Part shown: piece by piece, positions 4,013 to 63,735 of the stretch | Layout of the letters: each line of letters begins with the position of its first letter | Position numbering within the stretch: the stretch's first letter is position 1 | Source of the DNA: Tetracentron sinense | Lineage: Eukaryota; Streptophyta; Magnoliopsida; Trochodendrales; Trochodendraceae | Reading direction: 5' to 3' | DNA length: 64,000 bases | NCBI GenBank assembly: GCA_015143295.1 | Contig: CM026562.1 | Span: 4,006,639 to 4,070,638, forward strand | Position numbers and translations under genes: made by a program | The notes under the pieces: model-generated | Seen by the model: the letters and a program-made list of their open reading frames with translations, nothing else | Told to the model about the DNA's origin: nothing | Databases searched by the model: none

Positions 4013-4099
4013 CTTAATTTTGAATGAAGTGGTTTATAAACATTAGAGCTTTACATGTGAGGGCATGTATCGGCAATGCTAGCTACACTTTCTTTCAAG

Positions 4100-4435
4100 A
4101 GACCAAATCCTCTAAGCTGCTAATCGGACTTGGCAAATCCGGTTATCACCCTTGAGGTCACCGCGTGCCCCTCTTGACACCCCTTTACTATGGTTAAGAT
4201 TCACCCTCCCATCCTTGGTTTTTAGAAAAAAATATTAATTCTTTTTTAAATATTTTAATATTAAAAAAACCCTAAAAAGTTTTTTAATATTAAAAAAAGA
4301 ATTAATATTTTTTCTAAAAACCAAGGATGGGTGGGTGAACCCTAGGGGTGGGGGAATCTTAATCACAATTAAGGGGTGTCAAAAGGGGCACGTGGTGACC
4401 TCATGGGTGATAGCATAGAGGATTTGGTTTCTTCT
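4100..4435. mobile_element. Foldback MITE of the 'ggttaagattcac' family
   Basis: Two arms of about 150 bp are inverted copies around an A/T-rich centre at about 4255-4285: gaccaaatcctcta, gaggtcaccgcgtgcccc, ggttaagattcaccc and ccttggtttttagaaaaaaa all recur reverse-complemented on the right. The right arm carries ggcacgtgg. The same family appears dispersed at 13.6, 15.6, 50.4, 50.7 and 51.3 kb and forms the tandem arrays at 56.5 and 58.8 kb. It has no coding capacity. Confidence 0.8.
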
Positions 4436-4865
4436 TTCAAACTCACTTTCTTTGTAAGCAAGGCATGTGTTACTGTCGTCTATTAAGAGAAAGACACGTG
4501 TTTTCCACTTCTAACACTCTCTCCAATCAAAAAGAGAGTGAGCACACTAGATATTCTTCTAGATTGGATTTGAATCGAATCTTAATTCGTCCACTTTATC
4601 CATGGGCAGCTCGCTTTAGCTTCCCAGCTTTTCTTTTCAGTTAAAAGAGGGACCACGACCAGTAACAGAAAGGAGAATCTTACGATTCTATTCACTGAGG
4701 CTATTGCGGTGAAGGAGGCACTGATAGTCTAAAAAGAAAGTGATTACCCAAAAAAAAGTCTAAAAAGAAAGTGCTAGCATTATCCATTGGGATATGTTAT
4801 CTACTTAGTTTGACAAATTGGTTGTCCAGCAAAGAAAAAGATTTATGAAATTGGTTCACATTTTG

Positions 4866-13539: not shown

Positions 13540-13990
13540 GTTCCCCCATTTTTTTTTTGTTGGGATAAGTCGTGTTCCCCTTTTATCACGTATCTTCCCT
13601 TTTTAAACACCTTTAACTGTGAAGTTCACCCAGTTTTAGGGAATTTAATTTTTTTAACACTCTAGTTTGGCAAATCATTCTTAACCATAGTTGAATGTTC
13701 CCATTTTAACTCGCCACGTGTTAATTTTCACAAATTAACTATGGTTAAGTTTCACAAATTCTTTGGATTAAGCCATTTAACCTTAGTTTTTAGAAGAAAA
13801 AAATTTAAAATTTTGACCACCCTTTAACTATGGTTTAGATACAATAACCCTGTGTTAATTTTTTAACCTAAAAAGTAAGGTTAAATGGCTTAACCCTAGA
13901 AATGAGTGAAACTTAACTGGTTAAAGGGTGTTGAAAGGGAAGATAGGTGTCGAGTTAAAACTATTTAACCTTAGTTCTCAAATGACTTAA
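13540..13990. mobile_element. Diverged foldback MITE, 'ggttaag' family
   Basis: It contains gccacgtgtt, ttaactatggttaagtttcac, ccttagtttttagaaga and an inverted half with accctagaaatgagtgaaac and ttaaagggtgttgaaaggg. These are the words of the 4100-4435 element. It lies inside the candidate CACTA interval. Confidence 0.6.
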
Positions 13991-15114: not shown

Positions 15115-15589
15115 TAGGTAATGATATTACAATTAAGTTTTACCTTAGAGTGCCGTATCCGATACATAACCGATATGACAATACGGGTACGGCGATACGG
15201 GTACATTTCTATTTTCAAAGTATCCGTGCTTCTTAGACAGCTTGAAAGACTTGGTGCTCAATCAGGTCAAAATGAGATTTTCAGGCATAAACAGGATCTT
15301 TCACGATTCATGCTTCATATCATATGGAACAACAAAGTCTTCCCTACATAAGGTTAGTTTGTAGCATGGTTCTTTCCTTCCTTCATGCATCTAATGATCT
15401 CCTTGTTTTTCGTTATGCATAGCTTGCATCTCTAAGGGATAAGGTACATACGTCCCCTGTGTAGGTGTACATTTTCCCTCTTATCAATAGTAATAGCCCC
15501 TCCTACATGCGGAGGATCCCCAAAAATAAAAATAAAAAAAGAAGAGAGATGATGTCTGTCTAGGGACGTCTAAAATATGTGGGTGAACC

Positions 15590-15710
15590 CTAGGGGTGGG
15601 TGAACTTTACCCACGGTTAAGGGGTGTCAAAGGAGACATGTGGTGACCTCTAGGGGTGATAACCGGATTTGCCAAATCCGGTTATCACCGTAGAGGATTT
15701 GACTCCCTAA
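15590..15710. mobile_element. MITE half-copy with a 16-bp palindromic arm pair
   Basis: It contains accctaggggtgggtgaac, acggttaaggggtgtcaaa and acatgtggtgacc, as in the right arm of 4100-4435. It then has ggtgataaccggattt / aaatccggttatcacc separated by only gcc, and gtagaggattt. It looks like a foldback element that has collapsed to one arm plus its terminal hairpin. Confidence 0.65.
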
Positions 15711-23473: not shown

Positions 23474-25161
23474 ATGGCAGGTCCTTTACGTTCTCATAAC
23501 CTTGTCAATCTGCGGGAACGCCCAGGATGTGAATCTTCAGTATTATCAGTCATCTCCACCCTCACATCGGAGCAAAGAATGGTTTGGCAACAGGAGTACC
23601 ATCTGGGGTACACTCTAGAGCTAAGCAGAATAAATCCAGACTGGCGCCTTCTTCAAGCTGCCATCCATTGTTGGGACGAAAGGACGATGACCTTCCATTT
23701 CGGTAAACAGGAGTTGTGTCCAACCTTGGAAGAGATCAGTCACATTTCGGGTCTTAACTTAGGAGAAGATATTGTGTTTCCACAACACCAAGGGAATTAT
23801 AAGCGGACGCTGGCCAGGTTCCTCGAGGTAAGAGAAGACCAAGTGCTCAGAGGGGCAGAGGAGTCATATAGTAAATGCCCTTTGACCTACCTATTTTCCT
23901 TGTATGACCGGGACTGGGATTACACCGCCCCCAAAGTTAATGCGGGTAAATTAAATGCATTTACTTTGGCGGTAGTGGGTCAAGTCCTATTCCCCAAAGG
24001 GCCAAAACATATAGAGGCCGTATTATGCAACGTCATCAGGCAAGTCCAGGAAAGAGCTACCCTTGTCCCAATGTTACTGGCTGAGCTTCTTCGAGACATT
24101 TCGTTCTGTTCCAGTCATCAGAAGGGGGCCTTCAACAGTTGTATCGCTCTTCTACACATCTGGTTAGTTGAGCACATCCCGAGTATTGCATCGCCCCCCA
24201 CAAGGCCAATCCAGTTCAACAGCGTGGTTCTACAATTCTTGGTACAACGTCATAAGCCGGCTTCTACGAATGCAGAGCTTTACCTTGCTCACCTCCAAAC
24301 TTTGAAAGAGGATGACATCATATGGCGGCCACCTGGATGCCTAGACAGATTCAGCCGCGCCTTAGCACAGTTCGACGTACTTGTATCATTCTAGCCGGGC
24401 TTTCAGGATCAGCACCTTATGCACCTCTCCGCGTTCTCCGACAGTTGGGGTATGCCCAGTTCATCCCTACCTGGGAACCCATGCACGAAGACTTCATCGA
24501 CTTCAAGGGCACCTCAGAGCGTATGAGGCGGGAATTTGCATCAAGCTGGAGGCTCTCCCGCTGGCGGGAGGATGAAAATCTTGAATACTGTATGACTCCT
24601 CAGACGGTGGATGGCTATGATCAGTGGTTGATTTTAGAAGACCAGGCAAGCAGCATGCCAATACCCGTTGAGCTACCAACACCAGCGAGACCCCCGAGGC
24701 ATGGCACCATACCAATTGCAGCAACCACTCGACCTTGGGTGGACACATTTCTACATGCCAGCATGAGTATCAAAGCCGAGGAAAAGGAGATCGCAGTAGC
24801 AAAAGCCCGATTGGCAGCAAAAGAGCGGAAGGTGAAGAAGTATGTGCACAAAGTCCGACATGAGGTAGGCCGTTTGATGCAAGAGAAGATTCAGGCTGAG
24901 CATTTTGCAGCTTCCCTGCAAAAAGTGGTCAAGCACCAAGCCAGGAGCAAGAAAGGTCTCAAGACTCGTCTCCAATTTGCACAAGAGCAGCTAGACATAG
25001 CCAGCGATGAGCTCAGTACCAAGATACGCCAGTATGTTCAGGGAACTCAGAATGCAGCAGAGACGATTGATATGCTGGAGGTTCACATCGAGGCCCTGAA
25101 TCAGCAAATCATGCAGCTCGAGGGCGAGCCCCTACCACTGGAGTTTGACATTCCTCTTTGA
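23474..25161 (+). mobile_element. Extra 5' ORF of the Tat element (DUF7745-like plus coiled coil)
   Basis: The first part resembles the plant mobile-domain-like protein found upstream of gag in Tat/Ogre elements: LLQAAIHCWDERTMTFHFG then CPTLEEISHISGL, and a VPMLLAELLRDI helix. The second part ends in a long Lys/Glu/Gln-rich coiled coil (KEIAVAKARLAAKERKVKK, then a heptad-like stretch to the end). Its function in the element is unknown. The region is broken about once. Confidence 0.7.
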
Positions 25162-33419: not shown

Positions 33420-33640
33420 ATAATAATAATAATAACAATAACAAACAAACAAACTTTTTTTGATTTGGTTAGATCGACCTTATCTTGACAATCGCTCAAA
33501 GCATCAACAAAGTCTGATTCAGCCTCGATTCGAAGCAGCAGCCCGAGCAAGCGTGAGAACATCCCCAGTTTCACACCTTCAAATTTCAATCTTCTGCCAA
33601 CATTTCAAAATCGATCACTCATATGAGGAGGCGAAAAGCA
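32389..33640 (+). other. Element 3' untranslated region, proximal part
   Basis: Non-coding. It has A-rich tracts (taaa repeats at about 32682-32714; about 30 A's at about 33388-33417 then ataataat) and two similar copies of an 'aaccagaaatggc...gcgcaaaattatg' segment (about 32940 and 33045). Confidence 0.7.
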
Positions 33641-34978
33641 CCTTTCAAACCGGCTGACATCGCCCCGCTTGTCATCCACCTTTCAAACTGGCTGACATCG
33701 CCCCGCTTTGTCATCCACCCTTTCAATCCGGCTGACATCGCCCCGCTTGTCATCCACCCTTGCAACCGGCTGACATCGCCCCGCTTGTCATCCACCTTTC
33801 AAACTGGCTGACATCGCCCCGCTTTGTCATCCACCCTTTCAATCCGGCTGACATCGCCCCGCTTGTCATCCACCCTTGCAACTGGCTGACATCGCCTCGC
33901 TTGTCATCCACCCTTTCAACCGGCTGACATCGCCCCGCTTGTCATCCACCCTTCCAATTCGGCTGACATCGCCTCGCTTGTCATCCACCTTTCAAACCGG
34001 CTGACATCGCCCCGCTTGTCATCCACCCTTGCAACCGGCTGACATCGCCCCGCTTGTCATCCACCCTTTTAATCTGGCTGACATCGCCTCGCTTGTCATC
34101 CACCCTTTCAACCGGCTGACATCGCCCCGCTTGTCATCCACCTTGCAACTGGCTGACATCGCCTCGCTTGTCATCCACCCTTGCAACCGGCTGACATCGC
34201 CTCGCTTGTCATCCACCTTTCAAACCGGCTGACATCGCCCCGCTTGTCATCCACCCTTGCAACCGGCTGACATCGCCCCGCTTGTCATCCACCCTTTTAA
34301 TCTGGCTGACATCGCCTCGCTTGTCATCCACCCTTTCAACCGGCTGACATCGCCCCGCTTGTCATCCACCTTTCAAACCGGCTAACATCGCCCCGCTTGT
34401 CATCCACCCTTGCAACCGGCTGACATCGCCCCGCTTGTCATCCACCCTTTTAATCTGGCTGACATCGCCTCGCTTGTCATCCACCCTTTCAACCGGCTGA
34501 CATCGCCCCGCTTGTCATCCATCTTTCAAACCGGCTGACATCGCCTCGCTTGTCATCCACCCTTGCAACTGGCTGACATCGCCTCGCTTGTCATCCACCC
34601 TTGCAACTGGCTGACATCGCCTCGCTTGTCATCCACCCTTGCAACCGGCTGACATCGCCCCGCTTGTCATCCATCTTTCAAACCGGCTGACATCACCTCG
34701 CTTGTCATCCACCCTTGCAACTGGCTGACATCGCCTCGCTTGTCATCCACCCTTGCAACTGGCTGACATCGCCTCGCTTGTCATCCACCCTCTCAAACCA
34801 GCTGACATCGCCTCGCTTGTCATCCACCCTTTCAAACCAGCTGACATCGCCTCGCTTGTCATCCACCCTTTCAAACCAGCTGACATCGCCTCGCTTGTCA
34901 TCCACCATTTCAAACTGGCTGACATCGCTATGGTTGTCATCCACCTTTTTCAATCTGGCTGACATCGTAATATGTTGT
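33641..34978 (+). repeat. Tandem array of about 37-38-bp units in the element's 3' UTR
   Basis: About 35 copies of a unit containing ggctgacatcgccccgcttg followed by tcatccaccc and a variable 8-11-bp joint (ttgcaacc, tttcaatcc, tttcaaacc). Copies fall into subtypes (cccc versus ctcg, accgg versus actgg) in higher-order runs. Hypervariable tandem repeats just before the 3' LTR are a known habit of Tat/Ogre elements. Short reading frames on both strands are artefacts of the repeat. Confidence 0.92.
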
Positions 34979-50284: not shown

Positions 50285-50625
50285 TCAAAAGAGCAATAGT
50301 TCGCTCCACGAGCGAGGAGCGAACTATTGCTCCTCGCTTTCCCAATATTGTACCTGCGTGAACTCAGGTTAATTTTTAACCCTGTAGTTAATTTTTTTTT
50401 TTTTAAACTTTTCTAAAAAGAAAGGTAGATGGGTGAACCCTAGGAGTTAGTGAACCTTAACCACAGTTAAAGGGAGTTTAAAGGGGGACACATGGCATGA
50501 AAAGGGAACCCAAGACACCCCTCCTAGCGTCACCTACCGAGGAGGTGATTATTTTCCTTTTCAAACTAAGGGGGAGTAGTAGAAAATAATTCAAACTTTT
50601 TCTAGAAGCCTTTATTAGGCATTTT
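50285..50625. mobile_element. MITE of the 'ggttaag' family, first of two adjacent copies
   Basis: It begins with a terminal hairpin (agcaatagttcgctcc...ggagcgaactattgct, 50291-50322), continues with gttaattttttttttt and gggtgaaccctaggagttag, and ends with acacatggcatgaaaaggg and cgaggaggtgattattttcc. About 340 bp. Confidence 0.65.
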
Positions 50626-50626
50626 A

Positions 50627-50945
50627 TATTAGAGCAATAATTCGCACCACTAGCCAGGAGTGAACTATTGCTCCTCACTCTCACATTGCCGATCCTTCAA
50701 CTCCCATTAACTCGGGTTAGTTTTTTTTTAGTCCTTTAGTTAATTTTATTTTTCTAAAAACCAAGGCTAAAAAAAAAGATAGGTGAACCCTAAGAGTGGA
50801 TGAATCTTAACCACAATTAAATGGGGTTAGAAGGGGGACACGTGGCTAGAAAATAGGAACCGAGACGCCCCTCCTTGTGTCACCGACGGAGGAGATGATT
50901 ATTTTCCTTTCTAGAAATAACATTTTGGTCTTTGTCGAACAATAA
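50627..50945. mobile_element. MITE of the 'ggttaag' family, second adjacent copy
   Basis: Same order of parts as the preceding copy: ttagagcaataattcgcacc hairpin, ggtgaaccctaagagtgg, ccacaattaaatgggg, acacgtggc, gaggagatgattattttcc. The two lie head to tail and are diverged from each other. A third partial copy is at 51325-51425. Confidence 0.65.
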
Positions 50946-51084
50946 AATGTATTATCTAAAAAAAGGTTCTTTCGTATTCTTAGTTGTCTTTTGGTGTTCC
51001 ATTGTGTTGTAACCAAATAAAAAAAAAATCAAATCCAAGTGTAGAGAGTGCTATCTTGTACCAAAGCATAACATTGCGGACTTT

Positions 51085-51239
51085 GCTACTGAGACCGTGT
51101 CAGGGCAGAGACCTCCGAGACCTCGCGCCCCAGCACGGGATCTCAGGTGGAGTCCATCTTCACATGGTGGGCTCCACTTGAGATCCCGTGTTGGGGCGCG
51201 AGGTCTCAGAGGTCTCGGCCCTAACACGGTCTCAATAGC
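51085..51239. mobile_element. Foldback element with about 70-bp GC-rich arms
   Basis: Left arm gctactgagaccgtgt...gcgccccagcacgggatctca, right arm its reverse complement (tgagatcccgtgttggggcgc...acacggtctcaatagc), with a short centre cttcaca. About 155 bp, with few mismatches between arms. Strikingly G/C-rich for this window. Confidence 0.8.
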
Positions 51240-51324
51240 ATTTCCCTAACATTGCAGCAGCAATTTTCTTGAGTTAACCTCTATATATATATTTTTTATT
51301 CACATCCTTCATCTTCTCCAACAG

Positions 51325-51425
51325 GGGGATAGGTGAACCCTAAGGGTGGATGAATCTTAACCACAGTTAAATGGGATTAGAAGGGGGACACGTGGCAAGA
51401 AAATAGGAGCCGAGACGCCCCTCCT
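51325..51425. mobile_element. Partial MITE of the 'ggttaag' family
   Basis: It contains ataggtgaaccctaagggtg, ttaaccacagttaaatggg and acacgtggcaagaaaatagg, matching 50770-50875 closely. Only one half is present. Confidence 0.6.
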
Positions 51426-52934: not shown

Positions 52935-54915
52935 ATGTTGTGTTTTTCTCCAGTTAATGCTCTATTGCTAATCACTCTCTTGGGTGGTTTTGTTGTTCAA
53001 GTGGGGTGCCTGGATTTATACTATTCGACCTTCACGACAGAAAGCCAGCAAGATTTTTCTTTTGCCAATGATTCAGGAGTAACTAAGGAAATTCTCCAAT
53101 TGACATATAATTTCATTGGAGCTTCTATGTTAAATTTTTCTGGACGAATCTAGTATAAAAAACCATTCAAGCTATGGAACAGAAGGAAAGGCTTGACAGC
53201 ATCCTTCAACTCTACCTTTGTACTTGTTATTGATCCCCAAACCCCGCCTGGCGGTGAAGGCATGGCCTTCATATTAACCAGGGAATCAAGCATCCCTGAT
53301 AACAGTGAAGGGAAATGGCTCGGGATCGTTAATGCAAGTACCAATGGTTCCTCTCTACGAAATATTGTTGCCGTAGAATTTGACACAAGGAAGAGCTATG
53401 AGGAGGATCTAGATGACAAGCATGTTGGTGTGGATCTGAATAGTATCAACTCCATCAAGCAAGTCTCAATGAGTGACTACGGTGTCAATCTTTCAAGTGG
53501 ATTCGATGTAACAGCCAGAATTCAGTATGATGGGGAATCAATAACCATCTTTGTTTCCATGAATAATGGAACTGGATCCAACATTACAAATCCAGTAATC
53601 TCAATACCACTTAATCTCTTTGATTATCTTCCAGAGGATATTTACATGGGATCCTCGGCTTCCACAGGGAATGGTACCCAACTTAACTGTGTAAAATCAT
53701 GGCATTTCAATGGTGTAGACATAGAAGATGAAAGCTCTTCTGACTATGGGTTTGGATAACCATTCCTATCCTAGTCGTCTTCTTCATCACTGCGTTCACA
53801 AGTTACTTATATTGGAGAAGGAAACATGCCATGGGCCAGGAGGATCTAGACATGGAAGAAGAGATTGAAGGTTCAACCTTGGGATCCCAAAAGTTCAGAT
53901 TGAAGGAACTCAAATCTGCAACTGGGAATTTCCACTCCAAAAACCAGCTCGGAAGAGGAGGATTTGGGATGGTCTACAAAGGCATCATGAAAGAGATCAA
54001 CATGGAGATAGCCGTAAAAAGAGTATCGAAGGATTCTCGTCAAGGTAAGAAAGAGTTCGTAGCAGAAGTATCAATAATCAGCCGCCTTCGTCACAAGAAT
54101 CTTGTGAAATTGATTGGGTGGTGCTATGAAAGCAAGGAGCTCCTTCTGGTATATGAATTCATGCCCAAAGGGAGCCTAGACAAGCTCATATTTTCTGATG
54201 ATCAGAGCCCAATGGCAGAAGCAGTCATACTGAGTTGGGAAAGAAGGCACAATATAATTTGTGGAGTGGCTTCTGCACTGGATTATCTTCATAATGGGTG
54301 CGAGAAGAGAGTGTTGCACTGCGACGTAAAATCCAGCAATATGATGTTGGATTCAGAGTTCAATGCTCGGTCGGGGGACTTCGGATTAGCTCGAACAGTT
54401 CAACACAATGGGGACACTCATCACTCCACAAAAGAGATAGCGGGAACACCTGGTTATATGGCTCCAGAATGTTTCCATACTGGTATAGCAAGCTTGGAAG
54501 CTGACGTTTATGGATTCGGAGTCTTCACACTGGAAGTTGCATGTGGACGAAGGCCTAATAATCGAAAAAATCAGAACACGCATAATAACTTCATTGTTAA
54601 TTGGGTGTGGGAGCTTTACGGGAAAGAAGGGATCCTTGATGCTGTAGACCTGCGGTTGGACGATAACTTGGAAAGGAGCAAAAGGAATGTCTGCTAAAGT
54701 TGGGGTTGGCATGTTGCCACCCAAACCCCTATCAGAGGCCCTCCATGAGAATAGCATTGCAAGTTCTCACTGGGGAAACAGCTCCACCAGTTCTACCTAT
54801 TGAGAAACCTGCCTTTATTTGGCCAGCCATGACTGCTAATTGCTGGGATAATCTTGGGTGTTCTCTAAATGGAGGGCAACATACTCCAAGTACAGATCTC
54901 AGTGGTAGATGATTC
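52935..54915 (+). pseudogene. L-type lectin receptor kinase pseudogene (copy 2)
   Basis: Closest relative of copy 1 and carrying the C-terminus that copy 1 lacks. Order: signal peptide, legume-lectin domain, short spacer DIEDESSSDYG, membrane span and WRRK, kinase (GRGGFGMVYKG, AVKRVSKDS, DFGLAR, APE in MAPECF), QRPSMR, and a tail ending DLSGR (54912). Three lesions: an in-frame TAG at 53151-53153 in the lectin domain; a frame change just before the membrane span (about 53710-53750); and a one-base loss in an A run at 54672-54674 that shifts the frame before subdomain XI. The catalytic-loop HRD reads HCD, so the kinase would probably be inactive even if expressed. The first and third lesions could be sequencing errors, but the HCD change and the second argue for real decay. 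Upstream sequence is shared with copy 1. Confidence 0.85.
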
Positions 54916-56255: not shown

Positions 56256-57866
56256 ATCTTTTCTAAAAGTGTTTTTACAAAAAAAACCCCTAACTTTTCA
56301 AGTATTTGTAAATACTCCCTCGTGTTTTATGATTTTGCATTATAGTCCATTGACTTTTAAATCTTTTTGCAAATACACCATTCCATCCAAAAGTTGGTAA
56401 ACAGATGTTATATTTTGTATGAAACGACCTTTTTAACCTTATTTTGATTTTAAGGAGATTTGTAAAAACTTTTCATAAGAGAAGTTTTTGTATCATATTA
56501 ACTATGGTTAAGATTCACTCACTCTTGGGATTCATCGACTTAACCTTGTTTTTTGGAAAAAAAAGTATTAACGTTAGGTTTATTATGCTTAACCACGGTT
56601 AAAGTCGGCTCTACAATCTGGCATGTGTCCCTTTTAAGATTCTTAATTGTGGTTAAGATTCATTCACCCATACGATTCATGCATGTAACCTTGGTTTTTA
56701 GAATAAAAAAAATTAACCTTAGATTGGTTATGCTTAATCACAGTTAAAGGAGTCTCTACAAGTTGTTATGTGTCCCTTTTAATATTCATTAACTATGGTC
56801 AAGATTCATTCGCCCCTAGAGTTCATGCATCTAAACTTGGTTTTTAGAAGAAAAAAAATTAACCTTATAAATTGATTATGCTTAGCTACAGTTAAAGGAG
56901 GATCTACAAGCCGCCACGTGTCCCTTTTAATACTCACTAATAGTGGTGAATATTCACTCACCTCTAGGGTTAATGCATCTAATCTTGGATTTTAGAATTA
57001 TATATATATATAAACCTGACAATGCTTACCCCCATCTTAAGGGGGCTCTACAAACCATCACATGTCCTTTTTAACACCCACTAATTGTGGTTAAGATTCA
57101 CTCGCCCCTTGGGTTCATGCATCTAACCATGGTTTTTAGATGAAAAAAATATTAACCTTAAATTGATTATACTTAACCACAATTAAAGGAGACTCTACAA
57201 GCTGGCACGTGTCCCTTTTAACACCCACTAATTAGGGTTAAAATTCACTCACCCTCTTGGGTTCATACATCTAACCTTTGTTTTCAAAAGAAAAAAAATA
57301 TTAAGCTTAGATTGATTATACTTAACCACAGTTAAAGAAGGCTCAACAGACTGCCCAGTGTCCCATTTTAACACCCACTAACAGTGGTTAATATTCACTT
57401 AGCCTTAGGGTTCATGCATCTAACCTTCGATTTTAGAAGAAAAAAACATTAACCTGAGGTTGAATATGCTTAACCACAGTTAAAGAGAACTCTACAAGCC
57501 ACCATGTGTCCCTTTTACCACTTACTAACTATAGTTAAGATTCACTCACCCTTAGGGTTCATCCAACTAACCTTGTTTTTTAGATTTTCTTAAAAATATT
57601 AACCACTAACCTCAATTAAAGGGGATAAATGGAACACATGGTGACTTTTATAAGCATGTGTTCAATCTAAGTCATTGAAAGAAGGTTAAAAATGTCATTT
57701 CACAAAAAATTTAAAAACTGTTAACTAGCTTTAGGATGAAAGGGTGGATTTGCAAAAAGTTTTGAAACTTAGCAGGGCATAATACAAAACCACAAAACAC
57801 AAGGGGGGTTGTTACAAATAGCTTAAAAGATAGTGGGTTTTTGTAAAAAAACTCTTTCTAAAATAT
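56256..57866. mobile_element. Long-TIR element enclosing an 8-unit array
   Basis: Left TIR about 56256-56450 (ttctaaaagtgtttttacaa, ccctcgtgttttatgatttt, caccattccatccaaaagtt, cctttttaacctt). Right TIR about 57680-57866 is its diverged inverse (aaggttaaaaatgtcatttc, ctttaggatgaaagggtgga, aaaccacaaaacacaagggg, ttgtaaaaaaac). Between them lie eight tandem units (56490-57640). No transposase is seen. The TIR length suggests a MULE-like or foldback element. The family is not one I recognise. Confidence 0.6.
56490..57640 (+). repeat. Array of eight about 146-bp MITE-like units (array 1)
   Basis: The marker word gttaagattcac and its variants occur at about 56509, 56652, 56797, 56945, 57089, 57236, 57384 and 57534, a spacing of 143-150 bp. 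Each unit runs: start word, (t)agggttcatgcatctaacc, ttggtttttagaagaaaaa, ttaaccttagattgattatg, cttaaccacagttaaagg, ctctacaag, cacgtgtccctttta. The first and the inner 'ttaaccacagtta' words are inverted relative to each other, as in the dispersed MITE. Unit 4 is followed by a TA run (about 57000-57012). Confidence 0.9.
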
Positions 57867-58545
57867 AATTAAATTTAGGTGGAACCAACATTATTGGATT
57901 CCAATTTCCTAAAATAATTGAACTGGAATTACCTCATGAAAAGTAGACCAGAGCACAAAGAATTATTTCTCATCTACGTCTTCATTCAACACCAGCAAAG
58001 ACTGGAATCAACTCATGAAAAGTAAACCACAAGAATTATCTCACATCTACCATCTACATCTTTATTCAACACCAGTAAAGACTGAGTCGGGGTCTTTTTG
58101 TAGAGGCTTCTATAACATTCCATGTATACCTTTCACAGAGCTCTTGTTAAACTTATCATTTCTAAAATATTATCTTTTTTAAAAGTGTTTTTACAAAGAT
58201 AGAGGGTTTTTGCAAAAAACCATATCTAAAATATAATTAAATTTAGGTGGGATCTACATTGTTGGATTCTAGTTTCCTAAAATAATTGAACTACAATTAG
58301 CTCATGAAAAGTAGACCACGAGAATTGTTTCACATCTATCATCAACGCATTCATTCAACACCAGCAAAGACTGGAATTAGCTAATGAAAAGTAGACCATA
58401 AGGATTATCTCACAGTTACCATCTACGTCTTCATTCAACCCCAGCAAGATTGAGTCGGGGCCTTTTTGTAGCTGCTTTTACAACATTCCTTATGTACCTT
58501 TCACAGAGTTCTTTTGAGACTTATCCTTCCTAAAATATTATCTTT
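57867..58545 (+). repeat. Satellite of about 365-bp units, first cluster
   Basis: Marker gagtcggggtctttttgtag at about 58086 and its copy at about 58449 (363 bp apart). Each unit contains ataattgaactggaattagc, catgaaaagtagaccacaag and ctaccatctacgtcttcatt. The last two blocks are doubled within a unit (about 80-bp inner repeat). Confidence 0.85.
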
Positions 58546-59880
58546 TCTAAAAGTTTTTTCACAAAAAAACGCTTAACTTTTCAAGTATTTGTAAATACTC
58601 CCTCGTGTTTTAGGATTTTGCATTATAGTCCGTTAACTTTTAAATCTGTTTGCAAATACACCATTCCATCCAAAAGTTGGTAAACAGATATTATATTCTT
58701 TTATGAAATAACCTTTTTAACCTTATTTTGATTTTAAGGAGATTTGTAAAAACTTTTCATAAGAGAAGTTTTTGTATCGCATTAACTATGGTTAAGATTC
58801 ACTCACTCCTGGGATTCATCAACTTAACCTTGTTTTTTGGAAAAAAAAAAGTATTAACATTAGGTTTATTATGCTTAACCACGGTTAAAGTCGGCTCTAC
58901 AATCTAACATGTGTCCCTTTTAAGACTCTTAATTGTGGTTAAGATTCCTTCACCCATACGATTCATGCATCTAACCTTGGTTTTTAGAATTAAAAAAATT
59001 AACCTTAAATTGGTTATTCTTAATCCTGGTTAAAGGAGGCTCTACAAGTTGTCGTGTGTCCCTTTTAATACTCATTAACTATGGCTAAGATTCATTTGCC
59101 CCTAGAGTTCATGCATCTAAACTTGGTTTTTAGAAGAAACACTATTATCCTTATAAATTGATTATGCTTAGCTACTGTTAAAGGAGGATCAACAAGCTGC
59201 CACGTGTCCCTTTAATACTGACTAACAGTGGTGAATATTCACTCACCCCTAGGGTTAATGCATCTAACCTTGGATTTTATATATATATATATATATATAA
59301 ACTTGATTATTCTTACCCACATTTAAAGGGGGCTCAACAAACCGTCACATGTCCTTTTTAACGCCCATTAACCGTGGTTAAGATTCACTCACCCCTTGGG
59401 TTTATGCATCTAACCATGGTTTTTAGAAGAGAAAAATATTAACTTTGATTGATTGTGCTTAACCACAATTAAAGGAGACTTTACAAGCGGCCATGTGTCC
59501 CTTTTAACACCCACTAATTGTGGTTAAGATTCACCCACCCTCTTGGGTTCATGCATCTAATCTTAGTTTTCAGAAGAAAAAAAATATTAACCTTAGATTG
59601 ATTAAACTTAACCACAGTTAAAGTAGCCTCTAAAGGCTACCATGTGTCCCATTTTAACACCCACTAACAGTGGTTAATATTCACTCAGCCCAGGGTTCAT
59701 GCATCTAACCTTAGATTTTAAAAGAAAAAAACATTAACCTTACGTTGAATATGATTAACCACAGTCAAAGAGAACTCTACAAGCCACCATATGTTCCTTT
59801 TACCACTAACTAACTATAGTTAAGTTTCGCTCGCCCTTAGGGTTCATTCATCTAATCTTAGTTTTTTATATTTTACCACT
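58546..59880 (+). repeat. Second copy of the TIR plus 8-unit array block
   Basis: The left TIR equivalent is at about 58550-58770, followed by eight units with markers at about 58790, 58938, 59083, 59231, 59376, 59523, 59670 and 59818. Unit-specific features match array 1 in order: unit 4 begins gtgaatattcactcacc and is followed by a TA run (about 59278-59300) in both arrays. The inverted right TIR is missing; the sequence passes straight into the 365-bp satellite. Confidence 0.88.
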
Positions 59881-61830
59881 ATCTACCATCTACGTCTTCA
59901 TTCAACACCAGCAAAGACTGGAATTAGCTCATGAAAAGTGGACCACAAGAATTATCTCACATCTACCATCTACGTCTTCATTCAACACCAGCAAAGACTG
60001 AGTCCGAGTTTTTTTTTATAGGCTTACTTAACATTCCTTATATACCTTTCACAGAGTTCTTGTGAGACTTATTCTTTCTTAAGTATTATCTTTTCTAAAA
60101 TTGTTTTTACAAAGTTAGAGGATTTTTGCAATAAACCATTTATAAAATATAATTGACTTTAGGTGGCACCTACATTGTTTGACTCCAGTTTCTTAAAATA
60201 ATTGAACTGCAATTAGCTCTTAAAAAGTAGACCACAAGAATTATGTCACATTTACCATCTTCGTCTTCATTCAACATAGAAAATACTGGAATTAGCTTAT
60301 GAAAAGTGGACCACAAGAATTATCTCGTATCTACCATCTATGTCTTCATTCAATAACAGCAAAGACTGAGTCGGGATCTTTTTGTAGAGGCTTCTATAAC
60401 ATTTCTTGTATACCTTTCACAGAGTTCTTATTAGACTTTTTATTTATAAAATATTATCTTTTCTAAAAGTGTTTTTACAAACGTATAAGATTTTTATAAA
60501 AAAACGCTTTCTAAAATAATATTGAAATTAGGTGAGACCTACATTGGACTCTAGTTTCCTAAAATAATTGAACTAGAATTAACTCATGAAAAGTAGACCA
60601 CAAGAATTGTGTTACATCTACCATTTACGTCTTCATTCAACATTTGCAAAGACTGGAATTTGCTTATGAAAAGTAGGCTACAAGATTTATCTTACATCTA
60701 TCATCTACGTCATCATTCAACACCTGAAAAGGCTGAGTCGAGGTCTTTTTGTAGAGGTTTCTAGAACATTCCTTGTATACCTTTCATAGGGTTCTTGTGA
60801 GACTTATCCTTTTTAAAATATTATTTTTTCTAAAAGTATTTTTACAAAGATAGAGGGTTTTTGCTAAAAAATCATTCTAAAATATAATTGAATTTAGTTT
60901 GGACCTACGTTATTGGGTGCCAGGTTCTTCAAATAATTGAACTGGAATTAGCTTATGATAAGTAGACCACAAGAATTCTCTCACATCTACCATCTACGTC
61001 TTCATTCAATACAGCCAAGACTGTAATTAGCTTATGAAAAGTAGAACACAAGAATTATCTCACATCTACCATCTATGTCTTCAATCAACAGCAATAAAGA
61101 CTGAGTCGGGGTCTTTTTGTAGAGGCTTCTGTAACATTCGTTGTATGCCTTTTACAGAGTTCTTGTGATACTTATCCTTTGTAAAATATTATCTTTTTAA
61201 AAATTATTTTTTATAAACATAAATGATTTTTGTAAAAAACAATTTCAAAAATATAATTGAATTTAGGTGGGACCTACATGGTTGGATTCCAGTTTCCTAA
61301 AATAATTGAACTGCAATTAGCTCATTAAAAGTAGACCACAAGAATTATCTCACATCTACCATCTACAACTTCATTCAACACCAGCAAAGACTGAAATTAG
61401 CTTATGAAAAGTAGACCACAAGAATTATCTCACATCTAACAGCTACGTCTTCATTCAACATCAGTAAGACTGAGTCGGTGTTTTTTTTGTAGAGACTTAT
61501 ACAACATTCCTTGTATACCTTTCACAGAGTTCTTGTGAAACTTATCATTTCTAAAATATTATCTAGTTAATAGACTTTTTACAAAGATATAGGCTTTTTG
61601 CAAATAACTTTTCCTAAATTTAATTGGATTAGGTGGGACTTATATTGTTGGACTCCAGTTTCCTAAAATAATTGAACTAGATTTACCTCATGAAAAGTAG
61701 ACCACAACAATTATCTCACATATACCATCTACATCTTCATTTAACACAGCAAAGACTGGAATTAGCTCATGAAAAGTAGACCACAAGAATTATCTCACAT
61801 ATACCATCTACGTCTTCATTTAACACCAGC
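59881..61830 (+). repeat. Satellite of about 365-bp units, second cluster
   Basis: Markers of the gagtcgg...tttttgtag type at about 60001, 60368, 60735, 61092 and 61469 (spacing 367, 367, 357, 377). Same composition as the first cluster, including the inner doubling. About five units; no coding capacity. Confidence 0.88.
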
Positions 61831-62064
61831 AAATCTTAACTTTTAAAGTATTTGTAAATACTCCCTCGTGTTTTAGGATTTTGCCTTATAGTCCATTATC
61901 TTTTAAATCTGTTTGCAAATACACCATTCCATCCAAAAGTTGGTAAACATATTTTATATTTTTTTTTGAAATGACCTTTTTAACCTTATTTTGATTTTAA
62001 GGAGATTTGTAAAAACTTTCACAAGAGAAGTTTTTGTAATGCATTAACTATGGTTAAGATTCGC
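61831..62064 (+). repeat. Third left-TIR copy, cut by an LTR
   Basis: aagtatttgtaaatactccctcgtg, caccattccatccaaaagtt and gagatttgtaaaaac repeat the left TIR of 56256 and 58546. The following unit starts (ttaactatggttaagattc) and is broken at 62064 by tgtagcacccc. A third block therefore existed before the LTR element inserted. Confidence 0.8.
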
Positions 62065-62269
62065 TGTAGCACCCCGGACTTTCCATACTTAACGAATAGC
62101 ACTTTCGTGACTAATTGGTTTTCATCGTAGTCTAATTAATAAATAAGGGAGAAATTGGAAATTTCAAACCGTCAGAAATGTTCCTTTTTGAAAGACGAAC
62201 CCAATGCAAGTTGAATCGTCAAAATCGGACGATCGAGTCAAAAGATATGGCCAAAACAGTTCTGACCTG

Positions 62270-62465: not shown

Positions 62466-63462
62466 GTTTTTGCAGAAATTTCAGTAAGGGTATTTTTGTC
62501 TTTCGGGTGCTAAACCCTTACTTCTTAAGGCTTGCCCGAGCCTTTAGGGCTTATTCAACATACTTAGAGGGTTTTTGAGAGTTAGAGAGAGAGGAGAAGG
62601 GGATTTGCACCTAGGGTTTCTATTGGAGAATGAATCAAAGGGTTTGGCAACCCTAGATCATCCTTAAACTTGGATTGCTTCAAGTTCAAGGCTCGAGCTC
62701 GTGGGGGATCTCGTTCTCAAGCTAGGGCAACATTCTCCAAGGTATTTCAAGAGGGCTTTCTTCCCCAAACCGAGTCTCCCTCAATAAAAGGTTTCCTCCT
62801 TTCAAGTTGGAGCTCAAATCAAGGTTCCTACCAAGATCAAGCCTTGATCTAAAGTTAGTACACCCTACTAACTTCCCCTAGCAATAATCTAGGTTTTCTA
62901 TGTGAAATGTGATTCATGTTAGTATTTTTCCTTCCTTGTAAAATGTATCATCTCTAATAATTATAAACAAGAAAAAGAAAAGGATATGGATGTGTGGATG
63001 AGAGATTGATTGAGGCGATAGGATGTCAAATGTATGATGTGTGATATGTGTGGTATGTGTAATGGAAAATGGAGGATGGGCATTTTACCAATAATGAACT
63101 CACTTTGATTATTGGATGGAAAATATGCACTAAAAAGAAGAAGATGAACGGTGGAGGAACATTGCATGTGATGTGTTTGACAAAATGCCTAAACTATGAA
63201 ATAATGATTTCAATGAAGAAAATGGAAATAGGCTTTATGCATGTATTCGTATGAATGGTGAATTGATTTAAATATCATATTAATTACTCAAATGGCCAAA
63301 TGAATGTACTATGAATTGAATGAATTGTGAGATCATATTTCTCTTGTTATCCTCATTTTCATGATTGTACTATTGACACGTACACGAGCATGCATGTTAC
63401 ATGAACCGAGATTTCAAGAGCATATGCATATAATAACCAACAAGAAAATATTACATGTCAAG

Positions 63463-63735
63463 GAGGTTGGTAGCCCAGGGACATTCGGGTACTAGCCTCT
63501 GGCTCACAAGAAAACCCAAAACACATATTATCAAGGAGGTTGGTAGCCCAGGGACATTCGGGTACTAGCCTCTGACTCACAAGAAAACTAAACAAGTAAT
63601 AAAAATCACATATTATCAAAAAGGTTGGTAGCCCAGGGACATTCGGGTACTAGCCTCTGGCTCACAAGAAAATCATATATCAAGGAGGTTGGCAGCCCAG
63701 GGAGATTCGGGTGCTAGCCTCTGGCTCACAAGTTA
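63463..63735 (+). repeat. Four tandem units of about 70-85 bp
   Basis: The unit contains aggttggtagcccagggaca, then ttcgggtactagcctctggc and tcacaagaaaa. It occurs at about 63463, 63537, 63622 and 63685 with variable A-rich joints. Confidence 0.9.

Follow-up and report, generated by a model that had tools for sequence, protein, structure and literature searches.

How did two arrays of a repeat related to a MITE-like hairpin come to lie side by side within satellite DNA in Tetracentron sinense, and were they brought there by transposition or copied on the spot? The window that we analysed, a single stretch of 64 kb, holds these arrays at 56256-62064 and scattered relatives of the array unit elsewhere. 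The best explanation, and one that we consider probable, is a single transposon insertion followed by internal deletion, satellite amplification and then tandem duplication of the block.

Array 1 (56499-57604) and array 2 (58783-59876), both read on the forward strand, consist of seven full units (about 148 bp, with a range of 144-150 bp) followed by a partial eighth of 79 bp in array 1 and 65 bp in array 2. The repeat arrays described in the initial annotation are real, while its count of exactly eight units each is to be read as seven and a part. All units run in one direction, positioned in array 1 between terminal inverted repeats (TIRs), and in either array unit 4 is set apart by the private start GGTGAATATTCAC and a TA run, as had been noted. 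The core 13-mer GGTTAAGATTCAC matches at 23 places across the window when up to two mismatches are allowed, against a mean of 2.00 and a maximum of 6 in 100 shuffles. Eight of these matches lie in array 1, seven in array 2 (the partial unit 8 of which escapes the scan at this threshold), one where a third block begins (62052) and seven outside the blocks (4192, 4352, 13743, 13906, 50450, 50800 and 51350). A literature search with this 13-mer gave no paper. Exact scans of viral contigs with one piece of the unit and one of the TIR gave no match either, a result that says little about a plant sequence.

The relatives outside the blocks had been described as single copies of the array unit. They are instead hairpins at 4.1 and 13.7 kb, and single arms embedded in other sequence elsewhere. 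The hairpin element at 4099-4431 (333 bp, within a forward-strand segment at 4090-4440) is short and non-coding, with ends 18/20 alike and 9-bp direct repeats TTCTTTCAA, and so has the terminal repeats and target-site duplication of a MITE. The second hairpin (13735-13918, forward strand) has 59-nt arms (83%), and the single arms, all on the reverse strand, are found at 15580-15665, 50375-50510, 50725-50860 and 51325-51410, those at 50375 and 50725 within a larger repeated segment. The copies at 4.2, 13.7, 50.4, 50.8 and 51.3 kb were recovered by the 13-mer scan, the two earlier placed at 13.6 and 50.6 kb lying nearer 13.74 and 50.8 kb; the 15.6-kb copy misses the two-mismatch threshold and was recovered by alignment alone, as one arm of the dispersed family. 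The array units have an arm core in common with this family in alignment. They do not each carry terminal repeats and a target-site duplication of their own, and the outer ends of the 4.1-kb element find no site in the arrays with up to three substitutions allowed. When three of the 14 full units were folded and compared with shuffles, two folded better (z -1.87 and -2.66) and one did not (z +0.60). A palindrome, GGTGATAACCGGATTTGCCAAATCCGGTTATCACC, at 15655-15689, on the outer side of the 15.6-kb arm, is possibly part of the end structure of the dispersed MITE family. A direct repeat of about 280 bp (75%) at 50290-50910 carries two of the dispersed arms and the palindrome GAGCAATAGTTCGC.

Array 1 is enclosed by inverted repeats at 56256-56444 and 57678-57866 (76% over 191 columns), which bears out the earlier proposal of inverted repeats of about 190 bp. 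Their extent and ends fit a putative non-autonomous Mutator-like (MULE-type) element of 1586 bp at 56269-57854, with a left TIR region on the forward strand (56269-56498) and a right end on the reverse strand (57605-57854) that is an inverted repeat of the left end over 57678-57854. The element begins with GTGTTTTTACAAA on the left and with GAGTTTTTTTACAAA on the right (other strand), directly inside exact copies of the 9-bp direct repeat TTTCTAAAA (56260-56268 and 57855-57863, forward strand), which would be its target-site duplication. A 9-bp repeat so placed, with shifts of up to two bases, has a chance of 1.15e-4, or about 1 in 8700, under the Markov background of the locus. Since TTTCTAAAA recurs about 17 bp upstream in the satellite monomers, and since random 9-mer pairs within this repetitive locus agree at 2.6e-4, the direct repeat may predate the insertion. 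Long TIRs are as expected of Mutator elements, and so is a duplication of 9 bp, within the 8-10 bp of that superfamily, subject to the same recurrence of TTTCTAAAA. The notion of a non-autonomous long-TIR element is upheld, as is the relation of its internal array to a MITE-like hairpin dispersed in the window. Against our explanation we count that the locus has no coding sequence (none of the 13 window ORFs of at least 140 aa lies inside 56256-62064), that the ends were matched to no named family, and that both ends are kept in just one element copy. The second copy has a left TIR (58553-58782, forward strand), with TTTCTAAAA just before it at 58544-58552, and no right inverted repeat follows array 2 after 59876. 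On its inner side, the right end of element 1 also shows a brief inverted similarity to the flank of the unit: the sequence that follows unit 8 aligns with that flank over 32 columns with a score of 32 (at most 26 in 300 shuffles). That this sequence was once the distal half of an ancestral MITE is no more than a hint, its best score against the 4.1-kb arm being only 17, over 11 columns.

The initial annotation had proposed that the units were copied together, in which case they should group by position rather than by array, and units 1-7 do so in a unit-by-unit alignment. Going from unit 1 to unit 8, the same-position identities between arrays 1 and 2 are 95.9, 91.8, 92.5, 88.2, 90.4, 88.0, 92.5 and 79.7%, as against means of 76.4% among units within arrays and 76.3% across arrays at other positions. 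For units 1-7, the best array-2 match of every array-1 unit is its own-position partner (88.0-95.9%), and pairing by position gives the top sum among all 5040 possible pairings (639.2, with 631.4 for the runner-up). There are two exceptions: array-2 unit 6 matches unit 5 of array 1 (88.4%) marginally better than it matches unit 6 there (88.0%), and the nearest match of the partial unit 8 of array 1 is unit 1. In the unit tree, pairs 1, 2, 3 and 4 are well supported and pairs 6 and 7 less so, with 5 and 8 not resolved. Over 1339 columns the blocks themselves (56256-57588 and 58540-59874) have 91.2% identity, and the left ends of copies 1, 2 and 3 are 92-94% identical pairwise. Because units 1-7 pair by position, we conclude that the blocks were duplicated whole.

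Blocks 1 and 2 stand head-to-tail, 2284 bp apart with satellite between them, and have the same 13 bases, ATCTTTTCTAAAA, to the left of the left end. Head-to-tail copies within one satellite and with a common left-end flank point to local tandem duplication rather than transposition. The earlier suggestion that the composite had spread by its own mobility therefore finds no support in the window, where the copies are head-to-tail neighbours with the same left-end bases.

The satellite has a period of 368 bp, close to the 365 bp first given, and does separate the blocks as described. Between blocks 1 and 2 (57864-58552, forward strand) there are two monomers of this type, the first closing near 58.2 kb with a collapsed remnant of the element and the second entering block 2. 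After array 2 (59881-61833, forward strand) come 5.3 such monomers (368 bp each), in which remnant junctions occur near 60.1, 60.5, 60.8, 61.2 and 61.6 kb. The window thus holds about 7.3 monomers, the five full ones being 81-82% identical, and within the monomers a segment of about 79 bp is present as a diverged direct duplication. The monomers lead from the element's right flank to the left one, and at all six aligned junctions an element-like left end (13 bp) is joined to a right end (26 bp) and the right flank; the match is degenerate in the two junctions at 61.2 and 61.6 kb, and partly so in the one at 60.5 kb. Counted by eye, the monomer consensus agrees with the element in 13/13 of the first 13 bp and 20/26 of the last 26 bp, and a near-repeat of 17 bp surrounds the junction. 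As an apparent collapsed remnant occurs at the same site in 6/6 junctions, the element was probably in place before the 368-bp satellite expanded. A higher-order repeat was also considered, the first and last satellite pieces being 94.7% identical over 114 columns; the other six monomers, too, are 87-91% identical to the first piece over this stretch, and this reading was dropped.

To the right, a third block is represented by the left TIR of element copy 3 (61837-62044, forward strand), with its first bases missing (61833-61837), and by the start of unit 1 of a third array (62045-62064, forward strand), which is cut at 62065 by a sequence beginning TGTAGCACCCCGG. Judging from its first bases, this sequence is a probable LTR, and the third block was probably interrupted by an LTR retrotransposon after the block duplication. 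The window ends before the right edge of the tandem locus is reached. Tandem repeats with periods of 64-85 bp occur at 63458-63732, in the sequence after the break. On the left side, the 200 bp before 56256 score 17 against the satellite, while 200 simulated flanks have a median of 18 and a maximum of 31; being unlike the satellite, they place the start of the tandem locus 4 bp outside the left direct repeat. This closeness, judged after the fact, suggests a connection between the insertion point and the first duplication.

The mean K2P distance is 0.29 between units at different positions (full units only, both partial units 8 excluded), 0.21 between monomers (five full monomers from eight pieces) and 0.089 between blocks 1 and 2. 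The two larger values imply that unit expansion and satellite expansion probably preceded block duplication. Since none of the five forks in the monomer tree is well supported, the order of events is read from mean divergence alone.

A history of this kind would begin with a non-autonomous Mutator-like transposon inserted once at a TTTCTAAAA site, its interior carrying a tandem array that would have grown inside the element from one MITE-like hairpin. One copy may then have lost its interior, keeping about 39 bp of its ends, and this collapsed copy with about 330 bp of flank may have been amplified head-to-tail into the 368-bp satellite. The junctions are most simply read as the outcome of an internal deletion at A-runs, presumably through microhomology, with amplification of the collapsed form afterwards. 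A later tandem duplication of the whole block, comprising the full element and flanking satellite, would have given blocks 1-3, by unequal exchange or by replication-based template switching; we infer one or the other kind of recombination. This history takes in what we observe directly, namely the position-wise pairing of units, the satellite context, the remnant-like junctions, the direct repeats and the relative divergences. If the insertion came first, the empty site in single-copy sequence would read GGGATCTTTTCTAAAATATAATT. More tentatively, the single insertion may itself have seeded the satellite at its own insertion point, with the foldback hairpin perhaps driving repeated local re-copying, given that the locus begins 4 bp from the target duplication and that collapsed ends are present at 6/6 junctions.

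The direction of this history could be reversed if a 368-bp array with a short palindrome was the older structure, in which case the TIRs and the array would have grown within that palindrome or been inserted there. The monomers are themselves diverged (the mean K2P of 0.21 given above) and the 17-bp near-repeat surrounds the junction, as an older satellite would allow; we nevertheless hold this to be unlikely, since both parts of the junction (13 bp on the left, 26 bp on the right) extend, in alignment, into the inverted repeats of the 1.6-kb element, none of the six aligned junctions is without the remnant, and an internal deletion takes fewer steps. It is also conceivable that the TIR-plus-array composite was the mobile unit and transposed repeatedly, the neighbouring copies being separate insertions. 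That the element could once move is suggested by its long inverted ends and 9-bp direct repeats, but separate insertions would be expected to show different target duplications, and copies 1 and 2 are alike in orientation, in satellite and in the 13 left-flank bases, which makes repeated transposition a distinctly poor prospect. The transposase might, lastly, have made the tandem duplication itself by alternative transposition, using the ends of two nearby elements as in maize Ac/Ds. The left edge of the locus, 4 bp from the direct repeat of the element, speaks for such an event. As outlined in PMC3744419, alternative transposition joins an element end to a new target sequence and creates a new target duplication, whereas in blocks 1 and 2 alike the left end follows the same TTTCTAAAA and four more bases; the junctions expected of such duplications from that outline were not seen at the locus, and we regard this route as highly improbable. 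One insertion, internal deletion, satellite amplification and block duplication are accordingly the reading that we retain.

The initial annotation knew of no named family with this build, which is too strong, as Tetris, Xstir and miDNA4 have, from what is described of them, the same general build. Tetris (TIR-220) of Drosophila virilis is described as a non-autonomous foldback element for which the authors suggest the Mutator superfamily, with target-site duplications of 8-10 bp and internal tandem repeats of about 220 bp that are a source of satellite arrays (PMC4079207). The Tetracentron element resembles it, as so described, in being non-autonomous, in the suggested superfamily, in its internal tandem repeats and in its link to a satellite. 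The tandem repeats of Tetris lie within its TIRs, whereas the Tetracentron element has none inside both TIRs, its array being central, in one orientation and related to a MITE-like hairpin; unlike Tetris as described, the Tetracentron locus adds a second satellite made of flank and collapsed element (PMC4079207). In the Xstir/Xmix MITE and miDNA4 of Xenopus, a MITE, a tandem array and a MITE-array composite likewise coexist, according to review descriptions that do not mention ordered block duplication; both systems are animal, and miDNA4 is of Tc1/mariner type (PMC9659126, PMC12628747). Among plants, the SaTar arrays of guayule and rice are reported as non-autonomous MULEs in linear multimers, but of unrelated, non-nested elements with microsatellites, where Tetracentron has one tandemly copied element with an internal array (PMC5907723). 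Plant Helitron tandem arrays, as summarised in review, are also arrays of DNA transposons with truncated members, from which the Tetracentron element differs by its inverted ends and 9-bp direct repeats (PMC12628747); no Helitron end was noticed at the locus by eye. Judging from titles, abstract openings and the literature cited here, we recognised no report in which a MULE combines a MITE-derived array at its centre with a flank-built satellite. Given the precedents of Tetris, Xstir, miDNA4 and SaTar, the kind is known and the particular build is a variant.

The locus adds a small new case to the established association of transposons with satellite DNA. Satellites that can be traced to one insertion event are useful for studying how satellites originate. 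In this locus the fuller and the collapsed versions of what is apparently one element adjoin, so that the order of steps can be read and can be tested in related genomes; if the insertion did seed the satellite, the element would be its birth certificate, kept beside fuller copies. The amplification was probably neutral, with no function indicated, and the repeat locus is otherwise probably a small and neutral one.

Elsewhere in the window, an LTR retrotransposon of about 20 kb (18848-39184) has 3.9-kb LTRs that are 98.6% identical, between which lie a plant-mobile-domain ORF (23474-24394), gag, G-patch and RT/RNase H/integrase ORFs. A 38-bp/153-bp tandem array (33639-34967, about 35 copies of 38 bp) stands between its pol ORF and right LTR. 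Pfam matches among the 10 ORFs scanned were to the plant mobile domain, DUF4283, legume-lectin receptor kinase, reverse transcriptase and integrase, and suggest nuclear DNA of a flowering plant. The legume-lectin receptor kinase ORF (1051-2781) has a related inverted copy about 50 kb away (52953-54697), 80% identical over 1715 columns and with shorter ORFs. A separate hairpin at 51084-51240 has 73-nt arms, 90% complementary, and an 11-nt spacer.
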